Below are positions 33,856 to 49,160 of a stretch of DNA of 64,000 bases, piece after piece. The stretch spans positions 186,001 to 250,000 of the forward strand of contig NZ_CP158374.1 of NCBI RefSeq assembly GCF_040267705.1, read 5' to 3'. The notes below the pieces were generated by a model. That model made no database searches. It was given only the letters and a program-made list of their open reading frames with translations, and was not told the origin of the DNA. Origin of the DNA: Agromyces sp. G08B096. GTDB lineage: Bacteria > Actinomycetota > Actinomycetes > Actinomycetales > Microbacteriaceae. The translations under genes were made by a program, and so were the position numbers. The stretch's first letter is position 1. Each line of letters starts with the position of its first letter.

Positions 33856-33884
33856 ACTATCGGCTGCCGCGACGGGCCGGTTAG
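33856..33884 (-). promoter_or_regulatory. sigma-28-type promoter of fliM operon
   Basis: On the minus strand CTAACC (33879-33884), 15 bp, CCGATAGT (33856-33863). The -10 is the closest of the set to the classical CCGATAA. It ends seven bases before the fliM GTG, so transcription should begin at or next to the start codon. Confidence 0.75.
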
Positions 33885-33910
33885 CGCGGGCGAGAGGCCG
33901 GGTGCACGGC

Positions 33911-34720
33911 TCAGCCCGCACCCTGCTGGCCGATGCCCGCGTACAGCTGGGGCAGCAGCTCGCGCACCGCGTCGGGCTCGTCCGAGAGCACGACGACGTC
34001 GACGCGCCGGTTCAGGGCGGCGGATGCCTCGTCCGCACCGTTCGCGACCGGTCGGGCCGACCCGAACCCGACCGCCGCCGCGCGCGGCGCGGCGATGCCC
34101 GTCTGCTCGACGAGGAAGCGCACCACCTGCGTCGCGCGGCCGCTCGCGAGCTCCCAGTCGGTCGGGAACGGGCCGGGAGAGCCGTGCGGATCGGCGTGGC
34201 CCTCGACCCGCACCTCGTCGTCGACCGTGCCGAGCACGCCGCCGACGACGCCGAGCACGGCGCGTGCCTTCTGGCTGAGCTCCACGCTGTTGCCCTCGAA
34301 GTAGGTCTCCGCGCCGACGAGGCGGACCGTGAGCCCGCGGTCGTCGATGTCGTAGGCGACCGCGTCCTGCAGGCCCTGCGCCGCGAGGCCCGCATCGATG
34401 CGATCGCGCAGTTCGAGCAGCCGGTCGAGCTCGCGCCGGGCGAGGTCGAGCGCCGACGGGTCGGAGGGCTCGTCGGTGCGGAGATCGGCCGGCACGACAT
34501 ACCCCTCGGAGATGTCCGTGTGCTCCGACGGCTCCTGCCCGAACCCGGTGGCCAGCGAGTTGCTGAGCGCCTCGAACTTCTCCGCGTCGACCGACGACAT
34601 CGCGAACAGCACGATGAACATGCACATGAGCACCGTGACCATGTCCATGTACGAGGCCATCCAGCGCTCGTCGTTGTGCACGTCCGAGTCGGCGCCGCGC
34701 CGACGCCGCCTGGCGCTCAT
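33911..34720 (-). CDS. motB: flagellar stator protein MotB
   Basis: A 269-residue MotB. A short basic N-terminus precedes one membrane helix with the proton-binding Asp26 (MASYMDMVTVLMCMFIVLFA). A plug/linker region and a C-terminal OmpA-like peptidoglycan-binding domain follow (VRVEGHADPHG...LASGRATQVVRFLVEQTGI...ANGADEASAALNRRVDVVVL). The ERW-D pattern and Asp are typical of a proton-type stator. It overlaps motA by four bases. Confidence 0.94.
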   Translation of the reverse strand: MSARRRRRGADSDVHNDERWMASYMDMVTVLMCMFIVLFAMSSVDAEKFEALSNSLATGFGQEPSEHTDISEGYVVPADLRTDEPSDPSALDLARRELDRLLELRDRIDAGLAAQGLQDAVAYDIDDRGLTVRLVGAETYFEGNSVELSQKARAVLGVVGGVLGTVDDEVRVEGHADPHGSPGPFPTDWELASGRATQVVRFLVEQTGIAAPRAAAVGFGSARPVANGADEASAALNRRVDVVVLSDEPDAVRELLPQLYAGIGQQGAG

Positions 34721-35481
34721 GCGGCCTCGAGCTGCTCCACGCCCGGCGCGATGGCGCGCAGGCGCTCGCCGAGGATGCGCGGCTGGCTGCCGGACTGCAC
34801 CGCGAGCGCGCCCTCCATGACGAGGGTCATGTTCTCCGCCTCGAGGGTCGTCAGCCGGGCGATGCGATCGCCGAGCGGCAGCCAGATGAAGTTCGCCGAG
34901 AGCAGGCCCCAGAGGGTCGCCACGAACGCGGTCGCGATCGATGGCCCGAGTGTGTCGGGCGAGTCGAGCTTCTCGAGCACGTGGGTGAGTGACACGACGG
35001 TGCCGATGATGCCGACGGTGGGCGCGTAGCCGCCGAGCGCCTTGAAGAACCTGGCCGACTGCATGCCGACCCGCTCCTTCGAGGCGACCTCCTCCTCCAG
35101 CAGTGTGCGGAGCTCGTCGCCGTCGGTGCCGTCGGCGATGTTCTGCAGCGCGTTCCTGAGGAACGGGTCCTCGGTCTCCGCGGCATCCTGCTCGAGCGAC
35201 AGCAACCCCTCGCGCCTGGCCTTCTCGGCGAGCTCGACGAGCCGGTCGATGGTGTCCTGCGGCTTCGCCGTGCGGCCGCGGATCGCACGCGGCACGGCCC
35301 GGAACGCCCGCATCGCGTCGGAGAGGGTGGCGCCGGCGATGCCGACGGCGATCGTCGCGCCGAAGACGAGCACCATCGGCGCGGGGATGAGCAGGGCGTC
35401 GACGTGGGCGCCCTCGAGGGTGATCATCGCGTACAGCGAGCCGAACGCGAGGACGATGCCGATGAGGAATGCGAGGTCCAT
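34717..35481 (-). CDS. motA: flagellar stator protein MotA
   Basis: A 254-residue, four-helix stator subunit. The cytoplasmic loop and the conserved Pro-Gly region before helix 3 (FKALGGYAPTVGIIGTVVSLTHVL) are visible. The start MDLAFLIGIVLAFGSLYAMI at 35481 lies two bases after the flbD stop. It probably uses protons, judging from overall MotA-like character, though the ion cannot be proved by eye. Confidence 0.94.
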   Translation of the reverse strand: MDLAFLIGIVLAFGSLYAMITLEGAHVDALLIPAPMVLVFGATIAVGIAGATLSDAMRAFRAVPRAIRGRTAKPQDTIDRLVELAEKARREGLLSLEQDAAETEDPFLRNALQNIADGTDGDELRTLLEEEVASKERVGMQSARFFKALGGYAPTVGIIGTVVSLTHVLEKLDSPDTLGPSIATAFVATLWGLLSANFIWLPLGDRIARLTTLEAENMTLVMEGALAVQSGSQPRILGERLRAIAPGVEQLEAA

Positions 35482-35483
35482 GG

Positions 35484-35735
35484 TCAGTCCGCTCTCGGTG
35501 CGACGGCGAGCCGGGGCCCGGGCCGGGGATCGTCGCCTACGAGCTCCTCGGCGCGGGCGAGCACCCGGGCGCGGAACTCCACGATCTCCCGAACGATCTC
35601 GGCGAGCGACTCGGTGACGACGTAGCTGGTGCCGTCGACCATCAGCAGGGTCGTGTCGGGGCTTTCGTGCACGCGCTCGATGAGGTCGGCGTTCAGCGCG
35701 AACCGACTGCCGTTCAGTCGCGTGACGACGATCAT
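35484..35735 (-). CDS. flbD: FlbD/SwrD family protein
   Basis: An 83-residue protein with the FlbD pattern MIVVTRLNGSRFALNADLIERVHESPDTTLLMVDGTSYVV. It is the first gene of the flbD-motA-motB unit. The homologue SwrD in Bacillus raises stator torque for swarming. The link to motA/motB here, with a two-base gap, fits that role. A sigma-28-type promoter lies 45 bp upstream. Confidence 0.88.
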   Translation of the reverse strand: MIVVTRLNGSRFALNADLIERVHESPDTTLLMVDGTSYVVTESLAEIVREIVEFRARVLARAEELVGDDPRPGPRLAVAPRAD

Positions 35736-35779
35736 GCACTTCCTCCGGACGTGAGGGCCCGGCGAAGGGGCCGCTCTCC

Positions 35780-35808
35780 ACTGTCGGCGGCGGGCGGGCG
35801 AGCGTTAG
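35780..35808 (-). promoter_or_regulatory. sigma-28-type promoter of flbD-motA-motB
   Basis: On the minus strand CTAACG (35803-35808), 15 bp, CCGACAGT (35780-35787). It is identical in both boxes to the flgB and fliC promoters. The expected leader to flbD is about 38 bases. Confidence 0.78.
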
Positions 35809-35861
35809 GGCGGGGCCCGCCGCGCCCGCCGCGCCACCGAACGCCGCCCGGAACACAGCGA

Positions 35862-35900
35862 ATCCGGGCCGGGACGCCGGCGAGGCATCCCGGCCCGGAT
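35862..35900 (-). terminator. hairpin terminator after flgE
   Basis: A perfect 13-bp stem (ATCCGGGCCGGGA with TCCCGGCCCGGAT) and a 13-base loop lie 15 bp beyond the flgE stop. It separates the flgE unit from the flbD promoter. There is no U-tract. Confidence 0.7.
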
Positions 35901-35914
35901 CGGGCGCGCGGGCG

Positions 35915-37075
35915 TCAGCGCTTCAGGTTGGTGAGCTCCTGCAGCACCTCGTCGGAGGTGGTGATGATGCGGGCGTTCGCCTGGAACCCGCGCTGGGCGA
36001 TGATGAGGTTCGTGAACTCCTGCGAGAGGTCGACGTTCGACATCTCGAGGTAGCCGCTCGCAAGGGCGCCGTAGCCCGGGTCGCCGGCGGCGCCGAGCTC
36101 GACGGCGCCCGTGTTCGCGGTCGCCCGGTACCGGGAGTCGCCGGCCTTCTCGAGCCCGCCGGGGTTCACGAAGGTGGCCAGGGCGATGCGCCCGACGGCC
36201 TCGGTGGCGCCGTTGGAGAAGGCGCCGGTGATGGTGCCGTCGGGGCCGATCGAGTACGAGTCGAGGGTGCCCGCGGCGCGGCCGTCCTGCCCGGCGACCT
36301 TCAGCGTGCTGAGGTCGGCGTAGCCGGTCACGCCGGCGAGGTCGACCGTGACGCCGCCGACGGTGAGCGTGGTGGGGCCCGTGGGCAGGCCGTCGGCGAA
36401 GGTGAGGGTGTCGAGGGTCGCCGTGCCGTCGCTCACCTCCCAGCCGGCGGCGTTGCGCGTGAACGTCAGCGTCACCGTCGTGGCCGTGCCGTCTGGACCG
36501 TAGACGTCGAGGTCCCGCACGATCTCGGTGCCGGCCGCGGCGTCGCTCGGCAGGTTGCCCGAGAAGCGCACCTCCGTCGTCGCGACGGCGGGCGAGACCG
36601 CGCCGCGCGGCAGCGTGATGTTGGCGAGGCCGCCGCCCTGGTTGACGACGCCGCCGACGGCGTTCCAGCCCATGACGAGCGCGCCGTCGGGCGTGACGAG
36701 CCGGCCCTGCGCGTCGAAGTCGAAGCCGCCGGCGCGCGTGTACAGCGTCTCGCCGCCGGCCTGCACGACGAAGAAGCCGTCGCCGGAGATCATGAGGTCG
36801 CTGGCGCGGCCGGTCGCCTGCGCCGAGCCCTGCGAGAAGTTCGTGCTGATGCCGGCGAGCTGCACGCCGAGGCCCACCTGGGCGGGGTTGGTGCCGCCGA
36901 TCGCGGCGCCCGGCGCCCCGCCGCCCTGGATGAGCTGCGACAGCGTGTCCTGGAACTGCGTGGCCGAGCCCTTGAAGCCGGCGGTGTTGACGTTCGCGAT
37001 GTTGTTGCCGGTGACGTCGAGCATCGTCTGGTGGGCGCGGAGCCCGGAGATGCCGGAGAAGAGCGAGCGGAGCAT
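35915..37075 (-). CDS. flgE: flagellar hook protein FlgE
   Basis: A 386-residue hook protein. The N-terminal rod signature FSGISGLRAHQTMLDVTGNNIANVNTAGFKG and the C-terminal DLSQEFTNLIIAQRGFQANARIITTSDEVLQEL flank beta-rich D1/D2 domains. The start at 37075 follows AAAGG. It comes after flgD with a 62-bp gap. No separate flgG or flgF is present, so this may be the only long axial rod/hook family member in the cluster. Confidence 0.94.
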   Translation of the reverse strand: MLRSLFSGISGLRAHQTMLDVTGNNIANVNTAGFKGSATQFQDTLSQLIQGGGAPGAAIGGTNPAQVGLGVQLAGISTNFSQGSAQATGRASDLMISGDGFFVVQAGGETLYTRAGGFDFDAQGRLVTPDGALVMGWNAVGGVVNQGGGLANITLPRGAVSPAVATTEVRFSGNLPSDAAAGTEIVRDLDVYGPDGTATTVTLTFTRNAAGWEVSDGTATLDTLTFADGLPTGPTTLTVGGVTVDLAGVTGYADLSTLKVAGQDGRAAGTLDSYSIGPDGTITGAFSNGATEAVGRIALATFVNPGGLEKAGDSRYRATANTGAVELGAAGDPGYGALASGYLEMSNVDLSQEFTNLIIAQRGFQANARIITTSDEVLQELTNLKR

Positions 37076-37137
37076 GGTCTGGCCTTTCGGTTCGGCGCCG
37101 GGCGCCCGGCGGTGCGGACGGCGGCGCGGGTCTGGGG

Positions 37138-37560
37138 TTACTTGCGGACGGCGGTGATGCGGTCGAGGGCGATGGCCTTGCCGTCCACGTCGATGAGCGG
37201 CACGGGTCCGGCGAACGAGACGGTGCCGGCGACGCCGGTGACGGGCTTGCCGTCCTTGTCGAGGTACTCGACCGTGCGGCCGATGAGCTCGGCGGCGGAG
37301 CTGCGCATCTGCAGCGAGAACGCCTCCTCCTGCTGGGTGGCGAGCGCGTTCAGGCGCTCCATCATCGCCAGCTGGGTCGTCTGCCCGATCATCTCGTTGG
37401 TGTCCATGGGCGAGGACGGGTCCTGGTGGGCGAGCTGGGTGACGAGCAGCTTCATGAACAGCTCGCCATCCATCTCCTGCTTGGGCACGCGGGTGGTGGG
37501 CGGCTGGGTGTAGAGGCCGGAGGTCCCGCCGGCTGCGGTGGCGCTCACTGGGTCGGTCAT
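37138..37560 (-). CDS. flgD: flagellar hook scaffold protein FlgD
   Basis: A 140-residue FlgD. The conserved part reads MDGELFMKLLVTQLAHQDPSSPMDTNEMIGQTTQLAMMERLN. The protein is short, with only a small C-terminal beta segment (VEYLDKDGKPVTGVAGTVSF), as in many Gram-positives. It caps the growing hook and is lost when the hook is complete. It lies between fliK and flgE. Confidence 0.93.
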   Translation of the reverse strand: MTDPVSATAAGGTSGLYTQPPTTRVPKQEMDGELFMKLLVTQLAHQDPSSPMDTNEMIGQTTQLAMMERLNALATQQEEAFSLQMRSSAAELIGRTVEYLDKDGKPVTGVAGTVSFAGPVPLIDVDGKAIALDRITAVRK

Positions 37561-37569
37561 GGATGCTCC

Positions 37570-39021
37570 TCAGGCGATGACGTCGAGCCCGCCGCCGGGC
37601 TGCCCGGGGGCTGCCGCGAACGTGCGGGCGGGGTCGAGGCGGTCGGCGGAGTGGCCGGGCCGCGGGTCGGTGGCGGCGGCGCTGCGCCGGTCGGCCGGTT
37701 CGTCGCGACGGGGGCCCGGGCCGGTGTGCGGATCGGGGTCGGCACCCTGGTCGGGGCGGCGCCCGCCGCTGCCGGCATCGTCGGCGGCGAGGTCGATGCT
37801 CGCGCCGACCCCCGCGGCGGCGGCGTCGCGACGCAGCTCGCCGAGCACGTGGCGGAGCGCCTCGCGGCCGGCGTCGCCGGGGGCGTGCACCTCGATCCGG
37901 ATGCCGTCGCCGTGCGAGACGGCCCGGAGCGTGACAGGCCCCAGCTCCTCGGGGGCGATGCGCACGAGCACCGATCCGTCGGTGCCGCTGCGGGCGAGCG
38001 AGACGAGGGGGCCGCTGAGCTGCTGGGCGAGGCGTTCCGATCCGGGCGCCGCCGCGGACGTCGGCGCCGGTGCGGTCGGTGCGGCCGCCGGTGCGGGCGC
38101 CGTCTGCGGCGTGACCAGTGACGCGGCGGATGCCCCGGCCTGCGCCTGGGTGGCCTCGGCCGCCACCCGGACGGGCGCGTCGGGGGCGGGTGCCGGGCCG
38201 CTCGTGCGGCGGGCCTCTGCGGCGGCGCCCGGGATGGCCGCGCCGGCGGTCGTGCTCGGGGCGCCTGCCGCGCCCGCGGCGGGGTCTGCCGCCGTGCCCG
38301 CGGGGTGACCGGCGGCAGCGGCCGAAGCGGTCGCCGAGGCGCCGGGCGCGGCCGGGGCGGCCCACGTGCCGGCTGCTGCACGGTCTCCCAGTGCGGGCGG
38401 GAGACCCGACGCCGTAGCAGGGGAGGGGGAAGGTGCCCCGGCGGGCGGAGCCGCGAGGGAGTCGCCGGCGCCGCGGGGTGGTGCGGTGCCGGACGGCGGG
38501 GATCCCGCCGGGGCGGTCGATGGGGCCGGAACGGCCGGTGCGCCGACGGATGCCGCACGCGGGGCCGCGCTCGGCGCGGTCGGTGCCGCGCCGGCGGCGA
38601 CGGTGGTGGCTGCCGACGGGCCGGTGCCGTCGGCCTCGCCGAGCGCCGGCGACGCCGGAACGTCGGTGTCGCCGGGTGCGCCGCCCGGGATGGCGGCGGG
38701 GGACGAGGCATCCGGATGCGCGTGCACCTGACCGGCCGGCGCGTTGACGGCGTCGGGCCGGCCGACCGGCGAGGCCTCGGATGCGGCGGACGTGTCAGAC
38801 CCGGCCGCGGCGGGGCCCTCGCCCGCCGGGCCGGGCTCGTGCGCGAGAGCGTCATCGCGGTTCGGGCGCTGGGCGGCCGGCGCGTCGGGCCGCGCGGGGG
38901 AGTCGGCCGCGGCATCCGCGGCGTGCAGGGCGGCGGCGAAGCGCTCGCCGGAGTCCCGCGGGCCGCTCGGCACCGGCCGGGCCGCCGGCGGCGGCCCGGT
39001 GACGATCGCGCCCGCGTTCAC
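37570..39021 (-). CDS. fliK: flagellar hook-length control protein FliK
   Basis: A 483-residue protein. The first about 330 residues are a low-complexity Ala/Pro/Gly-rich ruler. The C-terminal Flg_hook domain is clear (GSVLVRIAPEELGPVTLRAVSHGDGIRIEVHAPGDAGREALRHVLGEL). It measures hook length and triggers the FlhB switch. The stop lies nine bases before flgD and the start overlaps the NlpC/P60 gene by four bases. Confidence 0.88.
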   Translation of the reverse strand: MNAGAIVTGPPPAARPVPSGPRDSGERFAAALHAADAAADSPARPDAPAAQRPNRDDALAHEPGPAGEGPAAAGSDTSAASEASPVGRPDAVNAPAGQVHAHPDASSPAAIPGGAPGDTDVPASPALGEADGTGPSAATTVAAGAAPTAPSAAPRAASVGAPAVPAPSTAPAGSPPSGTAPPRGAGDSLAAPPAGAPSPSPATASGLPPALGDRAAAGTWAAPAAPGASATASAAAAGHPAGTAADPAAGAAGAPSTTAGAAIPGAAAEARRTSGPAPAPDAPVRVAAEATQAQAGASAASLVTPQTAPAPAAAPTAPAPTSAAAPGSERLAQQLSGPLVSLARSGTDGSVLVRIAPEELGPVTLRAVSHGDGIRIEVHAPGDAGREALRHVLGELRRDAAAAGVGASIDLAADDAGSGGRRPDQGADPDPHTGPGPRRDEPADRRSAAATDPRPGHSADRLDPARTFAAAPGQPGGGLDVIA

Positions 39022-39701
39022 GAGGCGCTCCGCAGCAGGGCCTGGAGCTGCGCGGCGAGAAGGAGGTCGGTGAGGGCCTGGCGGTCGATGCCGGCGCCCG
39101 CGAGCGAGGTGGCGGCCGGCATCGCAGACGCCGCGATCGGCGCCGCCGAGGCCGCGGCCGGAGCCGGCTCGGCCGGGGCGACCCGCCGGATCGTCTGGAT
39201 GTCGGCATCGGTGAGGTAGTTCGGCTGGTACGACACCGTGCGGCCTTCGTACGGGGCGTGCACGATCATGCCGTCGCCCGCGTAGATGACGACGTGGTCG
39301 GCGTTGTGGGTCACGATCAGATCGCCCGGCTGCGCCTCGGCGAGCGAGCCCACCTCGGTGCCGATGTGCTGCTGCTGCGAGACGCGGCGCGGTGCCTCGA
39401 TGCCGAGCGTGCCGAGCACCTGCTGCACGAGCCCGGAGCAGTCGATGCCCGAGCGGTCGTTGCCCCCGAGCACGTAGGGCACGCCGAGGTAGGTCTTCGC
39501 CTCGTCGACGATCGCCCGGCCGGTTGCGGCGCCCGCACCGGGGGCGGCGCCCACGGTCGAGGGCTGCTGCGCGGCGAGCACGGGGGCGAACGCCGCGGCC
39601 GAGTCCGACCGGCCGGTCGGCGCGGTGACCTCGCGTCCCTCGAGCGCCGCGACGGTGCGGGTGATCTCGTCGATGCGTCCGAGCGCCTCGATGATCGGCA
39701 T
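39018..39701 (-). CDS. NlpC/P60 peptidoglycan hydrolase of the flagellar operon
   Basis: A 227-residue C40 cysteine peptidase. The catalytic Cys is in GIDCSGLVQ, the His in HNADHVVIYAG, and a third polar residue follows near IVHAPYEGR. The N-terminal 60 residues are helical and linker-like, and there is no signal peptide, so export through the flagellar apparatus is possible. It lies between fliJ and fliK with short junctions. By position it could replace the muramidase FlgJ and open the wall for the rod, which is an inference. Confidence 0.85.
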   Translation of the reverse strand: MPIIEALGRIDEITRTVAALEGREVTAPTGRSDSAAAFAPVLAAQQPSTVGAAPGAGAATGRAIVDEAKTYLGVPYVLGGNDRSGIDCSGLVQQVLGTLGIEAPRRVSQQQHIGTEVGSLAEAQPGDLIVTHNADHVVIYAGDGMIVHAPYEGRTVSYQPNYLTDADIQTIRRVAPAEPAPAAASAAPIAASAMPAATSLAGAGIDRQALTDLLLAAQLQALLRSAS

Positions 39702-39702
39702 G

Positions 39703-40128
39703 TCAGGCTCCTTCCCGTCGGGCCGCGCGCGCGGACCCCAGTTCGTCGAGGCGGAGCTGCTCCGCCCGCAGGTCTTCGGCGGCGGCCGCGGTCAGGTGCG
39801 CGGTCTCGAGCCGCTCCAGAGCCCGCACCCGGCGGTCCGCGGCCTCGTGCGCGGCGCGTGCCTCCTCGGCCTCGGCAGCCTGAGCGGCGCGGAGCATCCG
39901 CAGCTCGCCGAGCCGCGCCTCGATCGAGGCGCGGCCCGCCGCCACGGCCCGGAGCGTGTCGAGGTCGGTGCCGGGCTCGCCGAACGCGGCGAGCTCGTGC
40001 AGCGCCCGGGTTCGCAGCGCGTCGCTGTCGCGGAGCCGGGCGTTCCGGCCCGCGAGGACGCTGCGGGCCTGCTCCTCCTGCACGCGCCGCACGCGGAGCA
40101 GGGCGTCGAGCCGGAATCCGCGGGTCAT
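39703..40128 (-). CDS. fliJ: flagellar export protein FliJ
   Basis: A 141-residue, almost wholly coiled-coil protein (RLDALLRVRRVQEEQARSVLAGRNARL, then long Ala/Glu/Arg helices). The length and position directly after fliI are typical of FliJ, the central stalk of the export ATPase. Sequence identity in this family is low, so context carries much of the weight. The ATG overlaps the fliI stop by four bases. Confidence 0.85.
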   Translation of the reverse strand: MTRGFRLDALLRVRRVQEEQARSVLAGRNARLRDSDALRTRALHELAAFGEPGTDLDTLRAVAAGRASIEARLGELRMLRAAQAAEAEEARAAHEAADRRVRALERLETAHLTAAAAEDLRAEQLRLDELGSARAARREGA

Positions 40129-41504
40129 GCCGCCGCCCCCAGCGCCTGCGCCAGCGCGCGAAGCCCGGCCGCGGTCTCCGCGAGCGGCGCGGCCTCGCCG
40201 ATCGGCTGGCGGAGGAACCGCTCGATCGCGGCATCCTGGGCGATCGCGGCGTCGACGAGCGGGTTCGCGCCGGGCTGGTAGGCGCCCACGTCGATGAGGT
40301 CCTGCGCCTGCGCGCGCGCCGCGAGCGCACGCCGCAGGATCGTGGCCTCGGCCTGCTGATCGGCCGGCTGCACGGCGCGCGCGACCCGCGACACCGAGCC
40401 GAGCGCGTCGACCGAGGGGAACCGGCCGGCGACCGCGAGCTTCCGGTCGAGCACGACGTGGCCGTCGAGGATCGAGCGCGCCGCGTCGGCGATGGGCTCG
40501 TTGTGGTCGTCGCCGTCGACGAGCACGGTGTACACGCCCGTGATCGAGCCGCGCTCGGCGGTGCCGGCCCGCTCGAGGAGCCGGCCGAGCAGGGCGAACG
40601 TCGAGGGCGGGTAGCCGCGGGTCGCCGGCGGCTCGCCCGCCGAGAGGCCGACCTCGCGCTGGGCCATCGCGACCCGGGTGAGGGAGTCCATCATGAGCAC
40701 GACGTCGAGCCCCTGCTCGCGCTCGTGCTCGGCGATGCGCGTGGCGAGCTGCGCGGCGCGGAGTCGCATGGGCGCGGGCTCGTCGGCGGTGGCCACGACC
40801 ACGATCGACCTGGCGAGCCCTTCGGCGCCGAGGTCGTCCTCGAGGAACTCGCGCACCTCGCGGCCGCGCTCGCCGATGAGGGCGATGACCGATCGTTCGG
40901 CGTCCGTGCCGCGCGCGATCATCGACAGCAGCGACGACTTGCCGACACCCGACCCGGCGAAGAGGCCGAGTCGCTGCCCGCGGCCGAGCGGCACGAGGGC
41001 GTCGAGCACGCGGACCCCCGTGCCGAGCTGGCGGTCGATGCGGGCGCGGGACATGGGCGTCGGGGCGGCCGAGGCGAGGTCGACGGTGCGCACGCCCGTG
41101 AGCGGGCCGCCGCCGTCGATGGGTCGCCCGAGTCCGTCGATCACCCGCCCGAGCAGGCCGGCTCCGACCGGGGCGCCCGCGGTGCGCAGGCGCCGGCGCA
41201 CCTCGAGGCCGGTCTCGACGCGGAGCGCCGGGGTGAGCGGCAGGCACGACGCGATGCCGGGGCGCACGGCCACGACCTCCGCGACCGCGGCGGGGTCGCC
41301 GCCGAGCTCGACGAGATCTCCTGCGGCGAGCGTGAGCCCTTCGACCTCGATCGCGAGGCCGACCGCGCTGCGCACGCGGCCGACGCGCTCGGGGGCGGCG
41401 GCGCGCAGGGCATCGGCGAGGCCGCGGGGCACGGCAGGGTTCGCCGCCCGCGTCGTCGCCGGCCGCGTCGTCGCCGGCCGGGTGATCGTCGTCGTGGGGG
41501 TCAT
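40125..41504 (-). CDS. fliI: flagellum-specific ATPase FliI
   Basis: A 459-residue export ATPase. Walker A (GLFAGSGVGKSSLL) lies near residue 180. Walker B and the family box read VVLMMDSLTRVAMAQREVGLSAGEPPATRGYPPS. It powers substrate unfolding with FliH and FliJ. The start at 41504 (MTPTTTITRP) is followed by a Thr/Pro/Ala tract made of short tandem repeats (about 41410-41490). The ATG overlaps the fliH stop by four bases. Confidence 0.96.
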   Translation of the reverse strand: MTPTTTITRPATTRPATTRAANPAVPRGLADALRAAAPERVGRVRSAVGLAIEVEGLTLAAGDLVELGGDPAAVAEVVAVRPGIASCLPLTPALRVETGLEVRRRLRTAGAPVGAGLLGRVIDGLGRPIDGGGPLTGVRTVDLASAAPTPMSRARIDRQLGTGVRVLDALVPLGRGQRLGLFAGSGVGKSSLLSMIARGTDAERSVIALIGERGREVREFLEDDLGAEGLARSIVVVATADEPAPMRLRAAQLATRIAEHEREQGLDVVLMMDSLTRVAMAQREVGLSAGEPPATRGYPPSTFALLGRLLERAGTAERGSITGVYTVLVDGDDHNEPIADAARSILDGHVVLDRKLAVAGRFPSVDALGSVSRVARAVQPADQQAEATILRRALAARAQAQDLIDVGAYQPGANPLVDAAIAQDAAIERFLRQPIGEAAPLAETAAGLRALAQALGAAA

Positions 41505-42154: not shown

Positions 42155-43151
42155 CGGCATCCCCCCGGTGCACGGTGATCTCGCCCTCCTCGGCGAGCTC
42201 GCGGATGGCGCGGACCAGGTCGGCTCGCGCCTCCTCGACCTGCGACAGACGGACCTGGCCGAGCAGCGCGGCCTCGCTGTCCAGCAGCTCGCGGTTGCGC
42301 TCGGAGAGGTTCTGCCGGATCTTCTGGTCGACGGCGGCCGGTGCGCCGCGGAGCGCGACGGCGAGCGCGGCCATGTCGGTGCCGCGCACGACGCGCTGCA
42401 CGTCGCGGTCGTCGAGGCGGACGACGTCGGTGAACGTGAGCAGGCGGCTGCGCACCTCCTCGGCGAGGTCGGGATTGCGGGCCTCGAGGGCGTCGAGCAC
42501 GGCGCGCTCGGTGGCGACGGGGGCGCGGTTGATGATGTCGACGAGGGGCTGCACGCCGCCGACCACCTCGGTCGCGGCGCGGGGCGAGATCATGGATGCC
42601 GCGCGCGCCTTCAGCGTCGACGAGACGATGGCGATCGCCGCAGGCGTGGCGCTGGTCATCTGCGCGATGCACTCCGCGACGTCGGCGCGACGGTCGTCGG
42701 GCAGGCCGGCGAGGATGCTCGACGCCTGCGCCGGGCGCAGGTGCGTGAGCACCACGGCGACCGTCTGCGGCAGTTCGGCGTCGAGGAGGGAGACGACCTG
42801 CGCGGGCTCGGCGCTGTCGAGGAACTCGAACGACTTGCCGGCGAGCGAGGAGGCGACGCGGTTCATGACGCCCGCGGCCCGGTCGGCCCCGAACGAGGAG
42901 GCGAGCAGGTCCTCGGCGAGCTCACGGCCGCCCCGGGCGCCGATCCGCCCGGCGACCGCAAGGTCGTGGAACTCGGAGATCGCGAGGTCGGTGGTGGTGG
43001 CGTCGACGCGCTGCAGGCGGATGATCTCCGCGGTGATCTCCGCGGCCTCCGACTCGGTGAACCCCTTCAGCAGCGCGGCCGCCTGCTCGCGCTCGAGGTT
43101 CATCAGCACGACGGCGACCTTCTGCGCGCCGGTCAGCGCGGCGGTGCTCAT
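42138..43151 (-). CDS. fliG: flagellar motor switch protein FliG
   Basis: A 337-residue rotor protein. The N-terminal domain begins GAQKVAVVLMNLEREQAAALLKGFTESE and contacts FliF. The middle domain has the EHPQ-type position as AELPQTVAVVLTHLRPAQASSIL. The C-terminal torque helix has RLDDRDVQRVVRGTDMAALAVAL and AAVDQKIRQNLSERNRELL with the charged residues that face MotA. The start overlaps the fliF stop. Confidence 0.96.
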   Translation of the reverse strand: MSTAALTGAQKVAVVLMNLEREQAAALLKGFTESEAAEITAEIIRLQRVDATTTDLAISEFHDLAVAGRIGARGGRELAEDLLASSFGADRAAGVMNRVASSLAGKSFEFLDSAEPAQVVSLLDAELPQTVAVVLTHLRPAQASSILAGLPDDRRADVAECIAQMTSATPAAIAIVSSTLKARAASMISPRAATEVVGGVQPLVDIINRAPVATERAVLDALEARNPDLAEEVRSRLLTFTDVVRLDDRDVQRVVRGTDMAALAVALRGAPAAVDQKIRQNLSERNRELLDSEAALLGQVRLSQVEEARADLVRAIRELAEEGEITVHRGDADEYVA

Positions 43152-44707
43152 GCGGGCGTCCGATCATCGAGCATGGCACGCAACAGCTGCGCGGTGCGAT
43201 CGGGGTCCTGCTCGGCCATGCGGGCGATCTCGGCGCGCTTCGCATCGGCCGGGTCGGGCTCGCGGGGGCCGGACGGCAGGGCGACGGGGTCGGGCTCGGG
43301 CTCGAACACCTGCTCGTAGTGCGGCACGGCCTCCTCGAGCTCGAGCGGCTCGCGCTTGGCGCGGAACCGGCGGCCCATGACGATGGCGCCGATGATGCCG
43401 ATGACGAGCACGACGGCGGCGAGGATGCCCCAGCGCACGAGCTCGGCGAGCCGCTCGGCCTCGGCGTCGGCCTCGGCGGCACGGAGCGCCTCGGTGGCCT
43501 GCTGGGCGTCCGTGGTGCTGAAGTCGACGAGCTGCACGCTGATCTCGTCGCCGCGTTCGGGGTCGATGCCGGCGGCGGCCGCGACGAGGTCCTGCACCTC
43601 GGCGACGCGGAGCCCCTCGGCCGCGGCGCGGTCGATCGCGACCGACACCGACTGTCGCGCGACGGCGCCGGCGGGGATGCTGCGGGTCTCGGTGACCTTG
43701 TCGACGGCGTTGTTCCGCACGGTCTCCTCGGAGGTGTACGTGCCGTCGCCGCCGTCGCCGCCCGGCACGGCGATGTTGTCGGGGCCGAGCACGCCCGCCT
43801 GCGCGCCGCCCGTGCCGGTGTACTCCTCGGTGTTGACCGATTCGTTCAGGGCGGGGGTGTCGGCGGCGGCCTCGAAGCGCTCGCTCGTCACCTCGGCGGA
43901 CTCGTCGCTGATGGTCGCGGCGACGGCCACGGTGGCGTTGCCGCCGCCGACGATGCGGTCGAGCATCTGCTGCACCGATGCCGCGACGCGGGTCTCGTAG
44001 TCGCCGGCTCGGGTGTCGTTGCCGCCGCCCGGGCCGGTGCCGAGCGCGGAGAGGACGTTGCCGTCGGCGTCGACGATGGCGACGTCCTCGACCTTCATGC
44101 CCTCGACGGCGGCGCTCGTGAGGTGGGCGATGGCCTCGACCTGCGACGTGGTGAGCGTGGTGCCGGCGGCCGTCTCGATGAACACCGACGCCGTCGGGTC
44201 GCGCTGCTCCTCGACGAACACGGTCTCCTCCGGCAGGGCGAGCTGCACGGCCGCCGACTTGACGCCCGACATCGCGGAGATCGTGCGGGCGAGCTCGCCC
44301 TCGATGGCGCGCTTGTAGGTCACGGACTGCTGGAACGCCGAGGTCGTCACGCCCATCTCGTCGAGCAGCGCGTACCCGCCCGTCGATGACGACGGGAGCC
44401 CGGCGGCGGCGGCCTTGAGCCGCTCCTCGTAGACGACCTCCTGCGGCACGAGCACCGTCGAGCCGCCGTCGGCGAGCTCGTACGGCACGTTGGCCGACCG
44501 GAGCTGCTCGACGACCGCGTTGGCGTCGGCGCCCGCGAGCCCCGAGAACAGCGGCGTGTACGCGGGACGCGACAGCCAGGCGCCGAGGGCCACCACGCCC
44601 ACGGCGAGGAGGGCGACGGCGAGGACCGCGAGCACGCGCTGCGCGACGCTGAACCCGCCGATGAACCCACCGATGCGGGCGAGACCGGCTTTGATCGGGG
44701 CGGGCAT
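43148..44707 (-). CDS. fliF: flagellar MS-ring protein FliF
   Basis: A 519-residue MS-ring protein with two membrane helices, near residues 24-46 and 430-450. The ring-building motifs are visible (LFSGLAGADANAVVEQLRSANVPYELADGG, ELARTISAMSGVKSAAVQLALPEE). The C-terminal cytoplasmic tail RMAEQDPDRTAQLLRAMLDD binds FliG. The start is chosen at MPAPIKAG (44707), which overlaps the fliE stop. Confidence 0.96.
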   Translation of the reverse strand: MPAPIKAGLARIGGFIGGFSVAQRVLAVLAVALLAVGVVALGAWLSRPAYTPLFSGLAGADANAVVEQLRSANVPYELADGGSTVLVPQEVVYEERLKAAAAGLPSSSTGGYALLDEMGVTTSAFQQSVTYKRAIEGELARTISAMSGVKSAAVQLALPEETVFVEEQRDPTASVFIETAAGTTLTTSQVEAIAHLTSAAVEGMKVEDVAIVDADGNVLSALGTGPGGGNDTRAGDYETRVAASVQQMLDRIVGGGNATVAVAATISDESAEVTSERFEAAADTPALNESVNTEEYTGTGGAQAGVLGPDNIAVPGGDGGDGTYTSEETVRNNAVDKVTETRSIPAGAVARQSVSVAIDRAAAEGLRVAEVQDLVAAAAGIDPERGDEISVQLVDFSTTDAQQATEALRAAEADAEAERLAELVRWGILAAVVLVIGIIGAIVMGRRFRAKREPLELEEAVPHYEQVFEPEPDPVALPSGPREPDPADAKRAEIARMAEQDPDRTAQLLRAMLDDRTPA

Positions 44708-45057
44708 CAGGCCTGCATCCGCATGATCTCGTTGAACGCCTCGACTCCGCGGTTGCGGACGGCGGCGACGAGCTCGAGCGTCACCGCCGCGCGCGAGGAG
44801 GCGAGCGTCGCCTGGTGGATGTCGGTGAGGTCGCCCGTGATGGCCCGCATCGCGAGCTGCTTCGACTCGCCCTGCAGCGCCTGGGCGCCGTCGACGGCGC
44901 CGGCGAGGGCCTGGGCGAACCCGGTCGCCCCGGCGGGGTTCACGGCGTCGGCGCCCGATGCCCGGGCGCCGGTCGCGCCGGCCGGGTCGGCCAGGTACCC
45001 CGTCTGCGTCACGCCTGCGGCCCCGGATGCCGCGGCGGCCACGGCCTCGACCGGCAT
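44707..45057 (-). CDS. fliE: flagellar hook-basal body protein FliE
   Basis: A 116-residue MS ring-rod adaptor. The C-terminal part SKQLAMRAITGDLTDIHQATLASSRAAVTLELVAAVRNRGVEAFNEIMRMQ is diagnostic. The first 45 residues are an Ala/Gly-rich leader not seen in enteric FliE. It sits between flgC and fliF with one-base junctions. Confidence 0.93.
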   Translation of the reverse strand: MPVEAVAAAASGAAGVTQTGYLADPAGATGARASGADAVNPAGATGFAQALAGAVDGAQALQGESKQLAMRAITGDLTDIHQATLASSRAAVTLELVAAVRNRGVEAFNEIMRMQA

Positions 45058-45449
45058 CAGCCGCGCCCGATCTGGAGGGCCGCGAGGTAGGTCTCGCGGG
45101 CACGGTCGACGACGGCGGCGTTGGCCTGGTAGCCGCGCTGCGCCATGATGAGCGCGCCCATCTGGCTCGACATGTCGATGTCGGGGTAGCGGACGTACCC
45201 GTCGGCGTCGGCGAGGGGGTGGTCGGGCTGATACGCCAGCCGACCCTCGGCGTCGCCGAAGGCGGCGCCCTGAACGTAGACGCCGGTCGTGCCCGCGCCC
45301 GCCTGGGCGATGACGTAGCGGGCCTGGAACGCGTCGCCCGCGGTGCTCGTCGCGGTGTTCGCGTTGGCGAGGTTGTCGGAGACGGCGTCGAGCCACTTGC
45401 GGTGCACGGTGAGGGCGGTGCCGGCGATGCCGATCGCGTCGAAGGTCAT
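45057..45449 (-). CDS. flgC: flagellar proximal rod protein FlgC
   Basis: A 130-residue rod protein. The N-terminus FDAIGIAGTALTVHRKWLDAVSDNLANANTA and C-terminus DMSSQMGALIMAQRGYQANAAVVDRARETYLAALQIGRG are the paired rod helices. It starts 13 bp after the flgB stop and runs into fliE. Confidence 0.95.
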   Translation of the reverse strand: MTFDAIGIAGTALTVHRKWLDAVSDNLANANTATSTAGDAFQARYVIAQAGAGTTGVYVQGAAFGDAEGRLAYQPDHPLADADGYVRYPDIDMSSQMGALIMAQRGYQANAAVVDRARETYLAALQIGRG

Positions 45450-45462
45450 GGTCGGGCTCCGG

Positions 45463-45807
45463 TCATCCGTTCAGGCGCATCGCGGTGCGCAGGGAGGTGA
45501 ACTGCCCGTTCGCGGCCTGGCTCGCGAACTGGAACCGCAGGACGGTGTCGATGTTCGATAGCGTCTCGGTGTCGAGGTTGACGTTGTTGCCGTTCAGCTG
45601 CGTCGGCTCGAGCGACCGCGCGGTGGTCGCCCGGGTGGCGCCGTCGCCGGCGGCGATGGAAGCGGCGAGCGCCTGCTCGAACTGGACGCGCTGGGCTCGG
45701 TAGCCGGGCGTGCTGACGTTCGCGATGTTGTTGGCGATGGCGCGCTGGCGCGCCGCCAGCCCGTCGAGCGCGCTCGAGAGCGCGAGCGCCGACACGGAAT
45801 CGAACAC
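45463..45807 (-). CDS. flgB: flagellar proximal rod protein FlgB
   Basis: A 114-residue rod protein from the GTG at 45807, preceded by GGGGGA. LSSALDGLAARQRAIANNIANVSTPGYRAQRVQFE and the C-terminal RFQFASQAANGQFTSLRTAMR are typical. It is the first gene of the large flgB-C-fliE-F-G-H-I-J-peptidase-fliK-flgD-flgE run. A sigma-28-type promoter lies 74 bp upstream. Confidence 0.94.
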   Translation of the reverse strand: MFDSVSALALSSALDGLAARQRAIANNIANVSTPGYRAQRVQFEQALAASIAAGDGATRATTARSLEPTQLNGNNVNLDTETLSNIDTVLRFQFASQAANGQFTSLRTAMRLNG

Positions 45808-45880
45808 GAGTGGTCCCCCAGATGGTGCAGCGGGCGGCCGGTCCCTGGCCTGGTCGTCGAGCGATCCGTGCTCGCGCGAC

Positions 45881-45909
45881 ACTGTCGGTCGTGTGCGCCG
45901 GTGCGTTAG
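45881..45909 (-). promoter_or_regulatory. sigma-28-type promoter of the flgB operon
   Basis: On the minus strand CTAACG (45904-45909), 15 bp, CCGACAGT (45881-45888). The boxes are identical to those before fliC and flbD. The expected leader to flgB is about 66 bases. Confidence 0.78.
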
Positions 45910-45928
45910 CCGGATGCCTCGCGCCGGG

Positions 45929-46255
45929 CTACGCCGTGCGGTCGAGGTAGACCGGTCGCGAGGGGACGGCGGCCGGGCGCGACCGGCGCTGCGCGGCGAG
46001 CTGCTCGAGCTCACGGGCGAGGTCGAGCCGGGCCTGCTCGGTGGCGGCGATCCGTCGCCGCAGCGCCTCGAGCGCGTCCGCGGCCGCGTCGGCGAGCTCC
46101 GGGGGCAGCGGTGAGGGCGGCGGAGCCGGGAGGGCGATGGCACCCGGGTTCGAGCTGCCGGGGCCCGAGAAGTCGTCCCGGTCCGAGGCATCCGTCTCGC
46201 TCGTGAGCCGGCCGAGGTAGGCCGCCCACGCCGCCGCGACGTCGTCAGCCGACAT
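45929..46255 (-). CDS. small protein after fliS, possible FliT-like chaperone
   Basis: A 108-residue protein. It has a short helical start (DDVAAAWAAYLGRLTSE), a Pro/Ser-rich middle and a C-terminal helix (ELADAAADALEALRRRIAATEQARLDLARELEQLAAQRR). The position after fliD-fliS, with an 11-base overlap, is where fliT is found in other bacteria, so a FliD chaperone role is possible. Sequence alone does not establish this. Confidence 0.55.
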   Translation of the reverse strand: MSADDVAAAWAAYLGRLTSETDASDRDDFSGPGSSNPGAIALPAPPPSPLPPELADAAADALEALRRRIAATEQARLDLARELEQLAAQRRSRPAAVPSRPVYLDRTA

Positions 46256-46646
46256 GCGCCGCCCCGGTCGTGCTTCGGGCCGGGCTCGCCTCGGCAGCCT
46301 CGTGCCAGGCGCGCCGCAGCGGTTCGAGCCGCGCGATGCACTCGCGGGTGAGCTCGACGTCGCGGCCGATGTTCGCCCGCACGAGGGCCTGGAAGACGTA
46401 GTCGTAGATCGCCATGAGCCGGCTCGCGCCGTCCCACAGGTCGACGTCGAGCGAGCGCTGCAGCTCGATGACGATGTCCTGGGCGTGCGTCAGCTGCCCG
46501 CCGGCCTCCGGCCAGTCGCCCGCGAGCTGGGCGGCCTCTGCGCGGTGCAGGTCGAGCAGGAGCCGGTCGTACAGCATCGTCAGCAGCCTGCTGGGCGAGG
46601 CGCTCAGGATGGCGGTGCGCCGGTACTCCGCGCTGCGGTCGATCAC
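46245..46646 (-). CDS. fliS: flagellin export chaperone FliS
   Basis: A 133-residue helical chaperone. SPSRLLTMLYDRLLLDLHRAEAAQLAGDW and DVDLWDGASRLMAIYDYVFQALVRANIGRD match FliS. It binds the flagellin C-terminus before export. It lies 20 bp after fliD. Confidence 0.93.
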   Translation of the reverse strand: MIDRSAEYRRTAILSASPSRLLTMLYDRLLLDLHRAEAAQLAGDWPEAGGQLTHAQDIVIELQRSLDVDLWDGASRLMAIYDYVFQALVRANIGRDVELTRECIARLEPLRRAWHEAAEASPARSTTGAAHVG

Positions 46647-46666
46647 GTCGGCTCCTCCGGTCGGGG

Positions 46667-48061
46667 CTACTTCTCGGTGCGGGGGGTCCAGCTCGGCAGG
46701 CCGGCGAGCTGGGAGGCGAGGTAGTCGGACTGCGCGTTCATGGTGCTGAGCGCGACCTCGAGCGCGGCGTACGTGCGCCGCAGCTCCGCCTCGCGCTGCT
46801 CCAGCCTTCGCCCCCAGTTCGTGATCTGGTCGTCCATGTCCTTGATGAGCGATTGACGGCTCTCGATCTGCTTGGTGAGCAGCCCGTCGTACTTGTCGGA
46901 GTACCGGTCGGCGACCTCGGCCACGCGTCCGGCGATCGTGCCGAACGCCGCCTGCACCTTCGCCGGCTCGGCGGCCATGGCGGCCTGGAACTTCTCGGCG
47001 TCGAACTCGAGCTCGCCCTCCTTCGAGAAGCTGATGCCGAACGGCGCGAGCGACGCGCCGTCGACGGGCGCCTGGATGGCGGCGACGAGCGCCTGGCGCA
47101 GGGTGCGCACGTTCGAGTCGCTCGTGAAGCTGCCGACGGCCGTGATGGCGTTGCCCTCGGCATCGGTGGTCTTCGTGGTCGCGGACTTCTGCGTGATGAA
47201 GGTGAGGATCTTCCGCACCTCGTCGAGGAACGCGGATGCCGCCTCCGACGAGGCCTTCACGTCGGCGCCGACGGTGATGGAGACGGGGTCGGCGGTCGGC
47301 TTCGACACGGTCACGTCGACGCCTGGAAGGAGATCGTCGAACGTGTTCGACGCGCTCGTGACCTCCTGGGCGGCCGGGGTGCCGGCCCAGAGCGTCACCG
47401 CGGCGTCCTGGCCCTGCCGCACGAGTGCGGCGCCGGCGACGCTCTGCAGATCGACGGCGGTGCCGGCGTCGAGGTCGGCCGCGCTGCCCTGGTAGACGCG
47501 GAAGGCGGCGTCGGCGCCGGTCTCGGTCGAGGCGAACTGGAGCCGGTAGAGCGGCTGGCCGGAGGCATCCGTGCCGGCCTGGATGCGGGTCGCGGTGATC
47601 CCGAGCTCGGCGTTGTTGACGGCCCGCGCGATCTCGGCGACCGAGTCGCCGGTGGCGACGACCTGGCTGCGGGTGCCGTCGGGGCGCACCACGGTGAGCA
47701 CGGGCGGGGAGCCGGGCCAGGTCGGCATGGCCGCGGAGACCATCACGTGCGCGCTCGCGACGCGCGTCACGGTGAGGTCGATGCCGCCGGTGGCGGCGCC
47801 CTCGCCGGCCGTGACCGAGACGGAGGCGTCGGAGGAGGTCGTGGTGAAGCGGGCGATCGCCGACGGCTTCGTCGCCGTCGTGGCCTGCTCGAGAAGACGG
47901 GCGAGCGCGGTGTTCAGCCCCTGGAAGTCGGTGAGCGCGACGTTGGCCTTCTGCCGGTTGGCGTTCAGCAGGGTGCGCGGTGCCGCCTCGATGCTCATCA
48001 GCTTGGTGATGAGCTCGGTCGTGTCGAGGCCGCTGGCGAGGCCGTCGAGGGAGATGCCCAT
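46667..48061 (-). CDS. fliD: flagellar filament cap protein FliD
   Basis: A 464-residue HAP2. The N-terminus GISLDGLASGLDTTELITKLMSIEAAPRTLL and the C-terminal coiled coil (ERYSDKYDGLLTKQIESRQSLIKDMDDQITNWGRRLEQRE in part) are diagnostic. It caps the filament and folds incoming flagellin. The ribosome site is weak. Its leader contains a 5-bp tandem repeat and it follows the fliC hairpin. Confidence 0.95.
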   Translation of the reverse strand: MGISLDGLASGLDTTELITKLMSIEAAPRTLLNANRQKANVALTDFQGLNTALARLLEQATTATKPSAIARFTTTSSDASVSVTAGEGAATGGIDLTVTRVASAHVMVSAAMPTWPGSPPVLTVVRPDGTRSQVVATGDSVAEIARAVNNAELGITATRIQAGTDASGQPLYRLQFASTETGADAAFRVYQGSAADLDAGTAVDLQSVAGAALVRQGQDAAVTLWAGTPAAQEVTSASNTFDDLLPGVDVTVSKPTADPVSITVGADVKASSEAASAFLDEVRKILTFITQKSATTKTTDAEGNAITAVGSFTSDSNVRTLRQALVAAIQAPVDGASLAPFGISFSKEGELEFDAEKFQAAMAAEPAKVQAAFGTIAGRVAEVADRYSDKYDGLLTKQIESRQSLIKDMDDQITNWGRRLEQREAELRRTYAALEVALSTMNAQSDYLASQLAGLPSWTPRTEK

Positions 48062-48076
48062 GGCGCGTCCGTTCGA

Positions 48077-48111
48077 GTCGGTGGGTCGGGTCGGGTCGGG
48101 TCGAGTCGGGT
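48077..48111. repeat. 5-bp tandem repeat in the fliD leader
   Basis: Imperfect tandem copies of GGGTC/TCGGG (about six to seven units, with GTGGG and GAGTC variants) lie 16-50 bp before the fliD start. Such a tract can slip during replication and change the leader length. Confidence 0.7.
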
Positions 48112-48155
48112 CTGCGGTGCGGTGCCTGAAGTCGTGCGTGCGGTGCGGTGGAAAC

Positions 48156-48216
48156 GGGCGAGCCCGGCGGCGGTGCGGGCGGGGAGGTCCCCGTCCGTGC
48201 GCCGCCGGGCTCGCCC
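48156..48216 (-). terminator. long hairpin after fliC
   Basis: A perfect 17-bp stem (48156-48172 with 48200-48216) is topped by a further inner stem of about nine pairs (CGGGCGGGG with CCCCGTCCG, one wobble). It starts 14 bp after the fliC stop and precedes fliD. It could terminate most fliC transcripts or protect their 3' end, lowering fliD expression relative to fliC. Confidence 0.8.
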
Positions 48217-48229
48217 CGGCCGGGTCGGC

Positions 48230-49075
48230 CTAGCCGAGCAGCTTCAGCACGCCCTGGTTGGCCTGGTTGGCCTGGGCGAGCATCGACGTGCCGGCCTGCG
48301 AGAGGATGCTGGCGCGGGTGTAGTTCACCATCTCCGCCGCCATGTCGGTGTCGCGGATGCGCGACTCCGCGGCCGACAGGTTCTCGGCCGAGACGTTCAG
48401 CGTGCGGATGGTCGACTCGAACCGGTTCTGCTGCGCACCGAGGTCGGCGCGAGCGGTCGAGATCGCCGTGATGGCGGCGTCGATCGCGGTCACCGTGGTC
48501 TTCGAGGTGGCGTTGTCGGTGACCACGAAGCCCGCGCCGGCGGCGGTGCCGTCGGCCGAGGCCAGCGTGCCGACCGCGGTGCCCACGTTGGCCAGGTTGA
48601 CGGTGATGGTGTCGTTCGCCGTGTCGCCCGCGCCGACCTGGAAGTTCAGCGAGCCGCCCTGCAGCAGGTCGATCCCGTTGAAGTTCACACCCTCGGTGAT
48701 GCGGTACAGCTCGAGGCTGAGCGCGTCGGCCTCCTTCTGGATCGCCCCGCGCGACTCAGCGTTGTTCGAGTCGTTGCCGCCCTGGACGGCGAGGTCGCGC
48801 ATGCGGTGCAGGATGTTGTGCACCTCGGTCAGGGCGCCTTCAGCGGTCTGGATGACCGAGATGCCGTCCTGGGCGTTGCGCGCCGCGACCTTGGTGCCGG
48901 AGATCTGCGAGCGCAGGCCCTCCGAGATCGCGAGGCCGGCGGCGTCGTCCGCCGCGCGGTTGATCCGCAGACCGCTCGAGAGCTTCTCGAGCGACTTCGA
49001 CAGGTCGTTCTGGGTGTTGGTCAGGTTGCGGTGAGCGTTGAACGCCGCGACGTTCGTGTTGATCTGCATACCCAT
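48230..49075 (-). CDS. fliC: flagellin
   Basis: A 281-residue flagellin. The D0/D1 N-terminus reads MQINTNVAAFNAHRNL...SLEKLSSGLRINRAADDAAGLAISE, and the C-terminus reads RDTDMAAEMVNYTRASILSQAGTSMLAQANQ and ends VLKLLG. Between them is only a short variable part, so the outer D2/D3 domains are almost absent. GGAAGAG precedes the ATG at 49075. It has its own sigma-28-type promoter and a leader with GGA motifs that could bind CsrA. Confidence 0.97.
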   Translation of the reverse strand: MGMQINTNVAAFNAHRNLTNTQNDLSKSLEKLSSGLRINRAADDAAGLAISEGLRSQISGTKVAARNAQDGISVIQTAEGALTEVHNILHRMRDLAVQGGNDSNNAESRGAIQKEADALSLELYRITEGVNFNGIDLLQGGSLNFQVGAGDTANDTITVNLANVGTAVGTLASADGTAAGAGFVVTDNATSKTTVTAIDAAITAISTARADLGAQQNRFESTIRTLNVSAENLSAAESRIRDTDMAAEMVNYTRASILSQAGTSMLAQANQANQGVLKLLG

Positions 49076-49125
49076 GAGAGATCTCTTCCTTGATCGTGGG
49101 ACGCCGGCCCATCCGTGGACCGGCA
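49076..49125 (-). promoter_or_regulatory. fliC leader with candidate CsrA sites
   Basis: The predicted leader holds GGA motifs at 49087-49089 (within the ribosome site AAGGAAG) and 49112-49114, with a third at its 5' edge (49126-49128). A 10-bp palindrome AGAGATCTCT lies between the ribosome site and the ATG. Spaced GGA motifs, one at the ribosome site, are what CsrA recognises in flagellin leaders elsewhere. Confidence 0.5.
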
Positions 49126-49131
49126 TCCACG

Positions 49132-49160
49132 ACTGTCGGGTGCGGCGGGCAGGCCGTTAG
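49132..49160 (-). promoter_or_regulatory. sigma-28-type promoter of fliC
   Basis: On the minus strand CTAACG (49155-49160), 15 bp, CCGACAGT (49132-49139). The distance from the T of TAA to CCGA is 20 bases, equal to the classical FliA promoter. It lies in the short gap between the sigma-factor gene and fliC. Confidence 0.82.

Follow-up and report, generated by a model that had tools for sequence, protein, structure and literature searches.

How can a bacterium assemble its flagellum in order when early and late flagellar genes carry the same promoter? The question is raised by a stretch of 64,000 nucleotides from Agromyces sp. G08B096, a member of the Microbacteriaceae (contig NZ_CP158374.1, positions 186,001 to 250,000; hereafter the window), which holds a flagellar gene cluster. 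An earlier note on this DNA described four near-identical promoters of the kind read by the flagellar sigma factor FliA, ahead of fliC, flgB, flbD and fliM, and proposed that one local FliA-type protein reads early and late genes alike, the hierarchy then being flat. We find this promoter conserved at the same places in flagellated relatives and nearly absent before other genes of the cluster, and for this reason consider it very likely that a single FliA-type sigma factor serves early and late operons. Our use of "flat" is restricted to transcription, because conserved hairpins in the leaders of fliC and flgB suggest post-transcriptional ordering; with good confidence we propose flat FliA-type transcription, with CsrA and FliW acting as a gate on how the flgB and flagellin operons are translated.

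One promoter ahead of early and late operons

All four sites are present as claimed, with 15 bp between the boxes and 20 bases from TAA to CCGA. They are the only matches in the window to the strict motif CTAACS-N15-CCGAYAGT, all of them intergenic and on the minus strand, and 100 shuffles gave none. The TAA of the -35 element, the CCGATA of the -10 element and the distance between them are those of a FliA promoter. Scored with a weight matrix derived from 124 promoter sites in relatives, these exact matches lie ahead of fliM (33856..33884, 28.5 bits), flbD-motA-motB (35780..35808, 24.8 bits; flbD itself at 35484..35735, minus strand, FlbD PF06289), the flgB operon (45881..45909, 23.7 bits) and fliC (49132..49160, 20.8 bits). 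The only other site in the window above 20 bits faces fliA (50256..50283, minus strand, one mismatch) and with 22.1 bits scores above that of fliC; the next-best score, 11.9 bits, falls on the same spot on the opposite strand, and the reversed-sequence control reaches at most 6.1 bits. A weaker FliA-type site with a 17-nt spacer, CTTAC-N17-CCGATGG (22184..22212, plus strand), stands ahead of the operon flgN-flgK-flgL-fliW, which begins with flgN (22261..22737, plus strand, FlgN PF05130).

The whole-genome scan that the earlier note had called for confines the exact sites to the flagellar cluster. Across 3,593,141 bases (3.59 Mb) the pattern CTAAC-N16-CCGAYAG matches exactly at the four window sites only, and with one mismatch at six positions, one of which lies ahead of fliA. 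Chemotaxis genes, also expected as targets, were dropped as candidates because a search with the methyl-accepting domain PF00015, the one chemotaxis domain used, found no match in the genome.

Conservation of the promoter in the family

The family sample comprised 150 genomes including that of G08B096, among which FliP was found in 46 and the strict motif in 40 (82 sites, against 6 in the reversed control). The motif is present in 38 of the 46 FliP genomes and in 2 of the 104 genomes without FliP (Fisher p 3e-25, a value that ignores kinship). Given this co-occurrence, the genome matches and the shuffles, a chance origin of the motif was rejected.

Its placement was counted twice. Among 45 flagellated relatives, with at most one mismatch and within 300 nt upstream, the motif was found ahead of fliC in 25/26, flgB in 28/36, flbD in 35/42, fliM in 35/45 and fliA in 0/19 cases, and ahead of 15 other genes in 4/569, one of these being a flbD site counted again before motA. 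The second count added the genome of G08B096, four species of the same genus and more stretches, and used a relaxed motif (CTWAC, spacer 14-19, CCGANAG). Per genome, with G08B096 included, it gave flgN 30/30, fliC 31/33, flgB 36/41, flbD 47/48, fliM 45/50 and fliA 3/30; with G08B096 excluded the values are 29/29, 30/32, 35/40, 46/47, 44/49 and 2/29, respectively. The 14 other flagellar genes had it in 9/454 upstream regions, some of which come from overlapping stretches. Three cross-matches to other genes (flgB of G181 and G191, fliC of G191) were kept as misses, the true fliC and flgB of both genomes (L131, L132) lying outside this count; so was fliC of G170, whose site (15.4 bits) is in a neighbouring stretch. 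This conserved placement strongly supports a shared promoter for early (flgB, fliM) and late (fliC, flgN-flgK-flgL, flbD-motAB) genes. As a side observation, two genomes (G143, G080; L115, L116) carry a FliA-type site outside the flagellar cluster, ahead of similar exported proteins that by eye look peptidase-like.

In the same genus, the spacer of the promoter differs by one base. The four main sites of G08B096 have 16 bases, while all 10 readable promoters of G182 (five sites), G191 (three) and G181 (two) have 17 (L097, L099, L101, L102, L104, L106), a coordinated one-base shift; the fourth species, G170, is mixed. Of 60 genomes in the genus just 5 have FliP, and flagella have therefore often been lost or gained there.

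Predicted start sites and a probably leaderless fliM

Counting from the first C of the site, position 35 is T in 60% and position 36 is G in 81% of the weight-matrix sites, so that a pyrimidine-purine start at position 36 fits; the predicted +1 thus falls 9 nt downstream of the final G of CCGAYAG. The gene fliM (32949..33848, minus strand, FliM and FliMN_C domains) opens with a GTG exactly at this predicted +1 (33848). Among 43 distinct regions from relatives, its first in-frame start codon takes the same position in 39 and lies within 1 nt of it in the other four; the fliM message is for this reason probably leaderless.

FliA, FlgM and probable control above FliA

The sigma factor gene fliA (49222..50010, minus strand) encodes sigma-70 regions 2, 3 and 4. 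The site facing it would produce a leader of 237 nt and makes autoregulation of fliA possible in this genome. As a general trait, autoregulation was rejected, since relatives have a fliA site within 300 nt in only 2/29 cases, both with a 17-base spacer and one mismatch, and the sister genome G182 has none. In 18 of the 20 relatives with sequence beyond fliA, the divergent neighbour is flgN, which is faced by a site above 12 bits in 17 of the 18. With 27 of 30 genomes lacking the motif ahead of fliA, and with CCCGAA boxes upstream of fliA in 24 of 35 regions of relatives (2.15 expected, a box picked post hoc), some other regulator probably stands above FliA, for which the CCCGAA box is a candidate operator. 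Two further features adjoin fliA. Its predicted leader contains a strong hairpin (50140-50225, minus strand; z -3.1, 1 of 200 shuffles as stable), and divergent from it runs a 354-codon open reading frame (50477-51541, plus strand) whose counterparts in G181, G182 and G191 occupy the corresponding position and are 62-63% identical to it. By eye this frame had resembled an unusual sigma factor, a reading that was dropped after it gave no Pfam or NCBIfam match.

FlgM scored over its cut-off in none of the 150 family genomes, although a divergent FlgM could escape detection. Weak matches (E 0.1 or better, best 0.0026) occur in 11 of the 150, none of them in G08B096, and the control search matched 5 of 14 genomes, including Escherichia coli and Bacillus subtilis, with three over cut-off. 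Absence of FlgM has already been published for later Actinobacteria classes. As FlgM is undetectable, there is no recognisable transcriptional checkpoint of assembly, and the early operons flgB and fliM carry the FliA-type promoter; both marks of an enteric-type hierarchy are thus missing.

GGA-loop hairpins in the fliC and flgB leaders

The leader of the flagellin gene fliC (48230..49075, minus strand, Flagellin_N and Flagellin_C) holds two sites of the CsrA type, a 5'-terminal hairpin with ACGGAU in its loop (49103..49124, minus strand) and an AAGGA near the Shine-Dalgarno sequence (49087..49091, minus strand). In all, 61 fliC leaders were gathered, 35 of them distinct. All contain at least two ANGGA; the second lies 12-18 nt ahead of the start codon in 35/35 distinct leaders, the first GGA lies 10 nt after the predicted +1 in 31/35, and 31/35 satisfy a strict rule that requires a GGA loop closed by a stem of 4 bp or more, against 4.5 expected from shuffles of the same base content. 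Covariation was analysed in 26 of the 35 leaders (five others being repeats over the 22 nt and four left out). Six of the eight pairs of the stem show changes on both sides, G-U pairs and double changes included; the covariation score was reached by 0 of 500 shuffles and fell from 0.300 to at most 0.062 in slid versions, and all 35 distinct leaders give the same picture. An Rfam search of positions 22000-51600 found nothing in the leaders; its two matches at E 1 or better lie elsewhere and fall short of the gathering score.

A tandem version stands at the 5' end of the leader of flgB (45463..45807, minus strand, Flg_bb_rod), the rod protein gene that opens a large operon, where two GGA-loop hairpins (45835..45873, minus strand) form a putative CsrA double site. 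At least two such hairpins are present in 35/35 distinct flgB leaders, against 0.9 expected from shuffles that preserve base content only, and random 70-nt windows have two or more in 3.7% of cases. The flbD leaders have at least two in 14/44 (shuffled 0.8), and flgN leaders stay at background (at least one in 13/34, shuffled 9.7). When 29 flgB leaders were aligned, 20 from the family and nine from other families, 93.5% of cells paired, against at most 39.7% when slid; helix 1 owes its complete pairing partly to the choice of where the leaders begin, as many were trimmed to start at the first hairpin. A covariance model (R1) made from these leaders has one strong match in the genome of G08B096, the flgB leader itself (E 2.2e-7; next 0.056). 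In other families of the class, it matches ahead of flgB at E<0.01 in 11 of 17 stretches with flgB, of which nine helped to build the model and two (L142, L151) are independent; it is weak or missing in L135, L136, L138, L139, L141 and L152.

The tandem GGA-loop leader of flgB occurs in many Actinomycetota. The exact tandem-hairpin pattern was found in at least 120 stretches of the genome collection; in the 80 that were listed there are 84 sites, 72 of which have flgB directly downstream. Among the 12 others, one is cut off and four were translated, three of them fliH-like and one cell-wall-hydrolase-like by eye. The genome names of the 80 listed stretches, which we take to be actinobacterial, include Microbacterium, Curtobacterium, Frigoribacterium, Arthrobacter, Cellulomonas, Nocardioides and four Actinoplanes species. 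The tandem leaders ahead of a gene that by eye is fliH-like come from two Microbacterium and one Frigoribacterium (L178, L194, L219).

Co-occurrence of csrA and fliW with flagella

Both csrA and fliW are located with the flagellar genes, as expected for CsrA-FliW homeostasis, a system also marked by GGA in a flagellin leader hairpin and at the Shine-Dalgarno sequence, both found here. The last gene of the flgN operon is fliW (25040..25411, plus strand, FliW PF02623), which starts with ATG on the open frame 22649-25411. It is followed on the other strand by csrA (25425..25667, minus strand), whose product is over the cut-off of CsrA PF02599 and, with 68.7 bits, narrowly below that of the NCBIfam csrA family (70.1). 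In the family sample csrA is present in exactly the 46 FliP genomes. In a class sample of 246 genomes csrA was found in 32 and FliP in 28, all 28 FliP genomes have csrA, and the genomes with csrA and no FliP match are G214, G273, G295 and G421.

The promoter across the class

In 20 flagellated genomes from other families of the class, the motif CTNA-N15-17-[AG]CCGA precedes flbD in 15/19, fliM in 10/19, flgB in 9/17, fliC in 1/4 and other genes in 5/145 cases. It is mostly CTCA with 16 bases, reversed upstream regions gave one match in total, and some of the misses are near-matches by eye (TCCGA in L149-L151). It is close to the flagellar promoter of Actinoplanes missouriensis, reported to read CTCA-N15-17-GCCGAA. 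Upstream of the four Actinoplanes tandem-hairpin sites we find CTCA-N16-GCCGA, followed by A in three and by T in one. Since the class-wide motif stands ahead of flbD, fliM and flgB and resembles that of A. missouriensis, the flat transcription plan is probably old.

A proposed flat transcription plan with a gate on the RNA

Taken this way, the proposal of a flat hierarchy very likely holds for transcription and should not be carried beyond it, given that the leaders of fliC and flgB share conserved hairpins of the CsrA type. The local FliA-type sigma factor would switch on flgB, flbD-motAB, fliM, fliC and, from the weaker site, flgN-flgK-flgL-fliW together, and assembly order would more likely be imposed on the RNA than at transcription. 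CsrA would bind the GGA-loop hairpins with which the flgB and fliC messages begin as well as the GGA at the fliC Shine-Dalgarno sequence, and FliW would relieve CsrA as flagellin is exported, after the published scheme of B. subtilis. As a probably leaderless message, fliM would escape CsrA. The effect on flgB could take either of two directions: under repression, the synthesis of the basal body would be tied to the export of flagellin, and under stabilisation CsrA would be an activator of the flgB operon.

Several observations weigh against this proposal. On the promoter side, the product of fliA scores 131.5 bits with its best NCBIfam family, FliA_WhiG (TIGR02479), and misses the cut-off of 189.6; we thus call it FliA-type by location, domains and promoter, and not as a curated member. 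Whole-genome matches with up to two mismatches (103+103) show no excess over the reversed control (144+127), which makes such loose scans uninformative, and the pattern of the flgN site, itself weak in G08B096, has four matches in the genome against one in the control. The placement counts ignore kinship among genomes, and the fliM sites of G031, G055, G072, G105 and G135 and the flgB site of G055 overrun the projected start codon and are either misplaced or chance. On the RNA side, all leaders come from regions in which a promoter with no more than one mismatch was recognised, the flbD leader of G08B096 is without ANGGA, the flgB stems vary little, and two of the five measures of covariation do no better than chance (121/500 and 334/500). 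The hairpins of the flgB leader in G08B096 have only 4 bp, and the complete leader is less stably folded than its shuffles (z +1.61).

Three alternatives, which are not mutually exclusive, have to be set against the proposal. The first keeps flat FliA transcription and takes the GGA hairpins to be DNA operators, attenuators or sites of another RNA-binding protein. The binding of CsrA is a prediction, the hairpins occupy the first bases of the transcript, a position from which a dyad operator could work too, and the nearly invariant flgB stems are equally compatible with DNA. However, ANGGA is conserved in the loops and recurs at its set distance before the start codon in every distinct fliC leader, the fliC stems contain G-U pairs and double changes, and csrA follows FliP genome by genome in the family sample, which together make this explanation unlikely.

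Slightly less probable still is a hidden early tier, in which flgB and fliM are driven in addition by an activator or a housekeeping promoter and receive no more than a boost from FliA, much as the fla/che operon of Bacillus has an extra sigma-D promoter. It is compatible with flat FliA-type transcription gated by CsrA, and the motif-less fliA of most genomes and the enriched CCCGAA boxes would suit it, but the +1 predicted for FliA coincides, or nearly so, with the fliM start codon and with the beginning of most of the hairpins of fliC and flgB. That another sigma factor reads the promoters alone or with FliA, for example a second FliA/SigF-like one that matches TIGR02479 at 107.7 bits (genome position 1795731-1796345), is very improbable despite the divergence of the local FliA, as motif and FliP co-occur, fliA lies inside the cluster and the spacing is that of classical FliA promoters.

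Relation to known flagellar systems

The flat plan is already published for one species, A. missouriensis, in which 33 flagellar genes are transcribed simultaneously without a checkpoint (PMC8306008); its flagellar cluster is the subject of a 2016 article by Jang in J Bacteriol. Simultaneous transcription, a FliA-family sigma factor and the lack of a transcriptional checkpoint are shared with it (PMC8306008, PMC8325347), whereas here the -35 element is CTAAC or CTTAC and the -10 element CCGATAG, the flgN, fliC, flgB, flbD and fliM promoters were compared over many genomes of another family, and a gate at the RNA level is proposed. The motility genes of Borrelia likewise lack a transcriptional cascade, with CsrA repressing flagellin translation, although they use the housekeeping sigma-70 instead of FliA (PMC3757020).

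The Hag-FliW-CsrA system of B. subtilis has the same csrA, fliW and two GGA in the flagellin leader, one of them at the Shine-Dalgarno sequence (PMC4894983, PMC8306008, PMC2587704); unlike there, a tandem GGA-hairpin leader here also precedes the flgB operon and FlgM is undetectable. In Campylobacter jejuni CsrA, again with FliW, binds many flagellar messages besides flagellin, flgI, flgH and flgE being strongly enriched and flgB hardly (0.7 to 1.6 fold), but the tiered RpoN/FliA hierarchy is kept (PMC4894983). The 2008 report on Kineococcus radiotolerans had already remarked that FlgM is missing and that csrA lies in the flagellar island, and from a likely CsrA site at the Shine-Dalgarno sequence of flagellin it had suggested that CsrA controls flagellin in actinobacteria; promoters, a 5' hairpin and a flgB leader are not mentioned in its available text (PMC2587704). 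In the open-licence literature we found no earlier description of the fliC 5' GGA hairpin, the flgB tandem leader or the family-wide promoter set.

Extended to flagellated Actinomycetes as a whole, the idea becomes more tentative, and we hold it at somewhat less than even confidence. The checkpoint may have moved to the RNA, with one FliA promoter firing early and late operons at once, CsrA, retained almost exclusively in genomes that retain flagella, gating the flgB operon through its tandem-hairpin leader and flagellin through its 5'-terminal hairpin, and flagellin export feeding back on the basal body as well through FliW. A 2021 review stated that post-transcriptional control in A. missouriensis could matter and remains unknown (PMC8306008), and the conserved leaders provide concrete RNA targets for this question. 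If the proposal is true, the FlgM checkpoint would be replaceable by CsrA acting on the rod operon and on flagellin.

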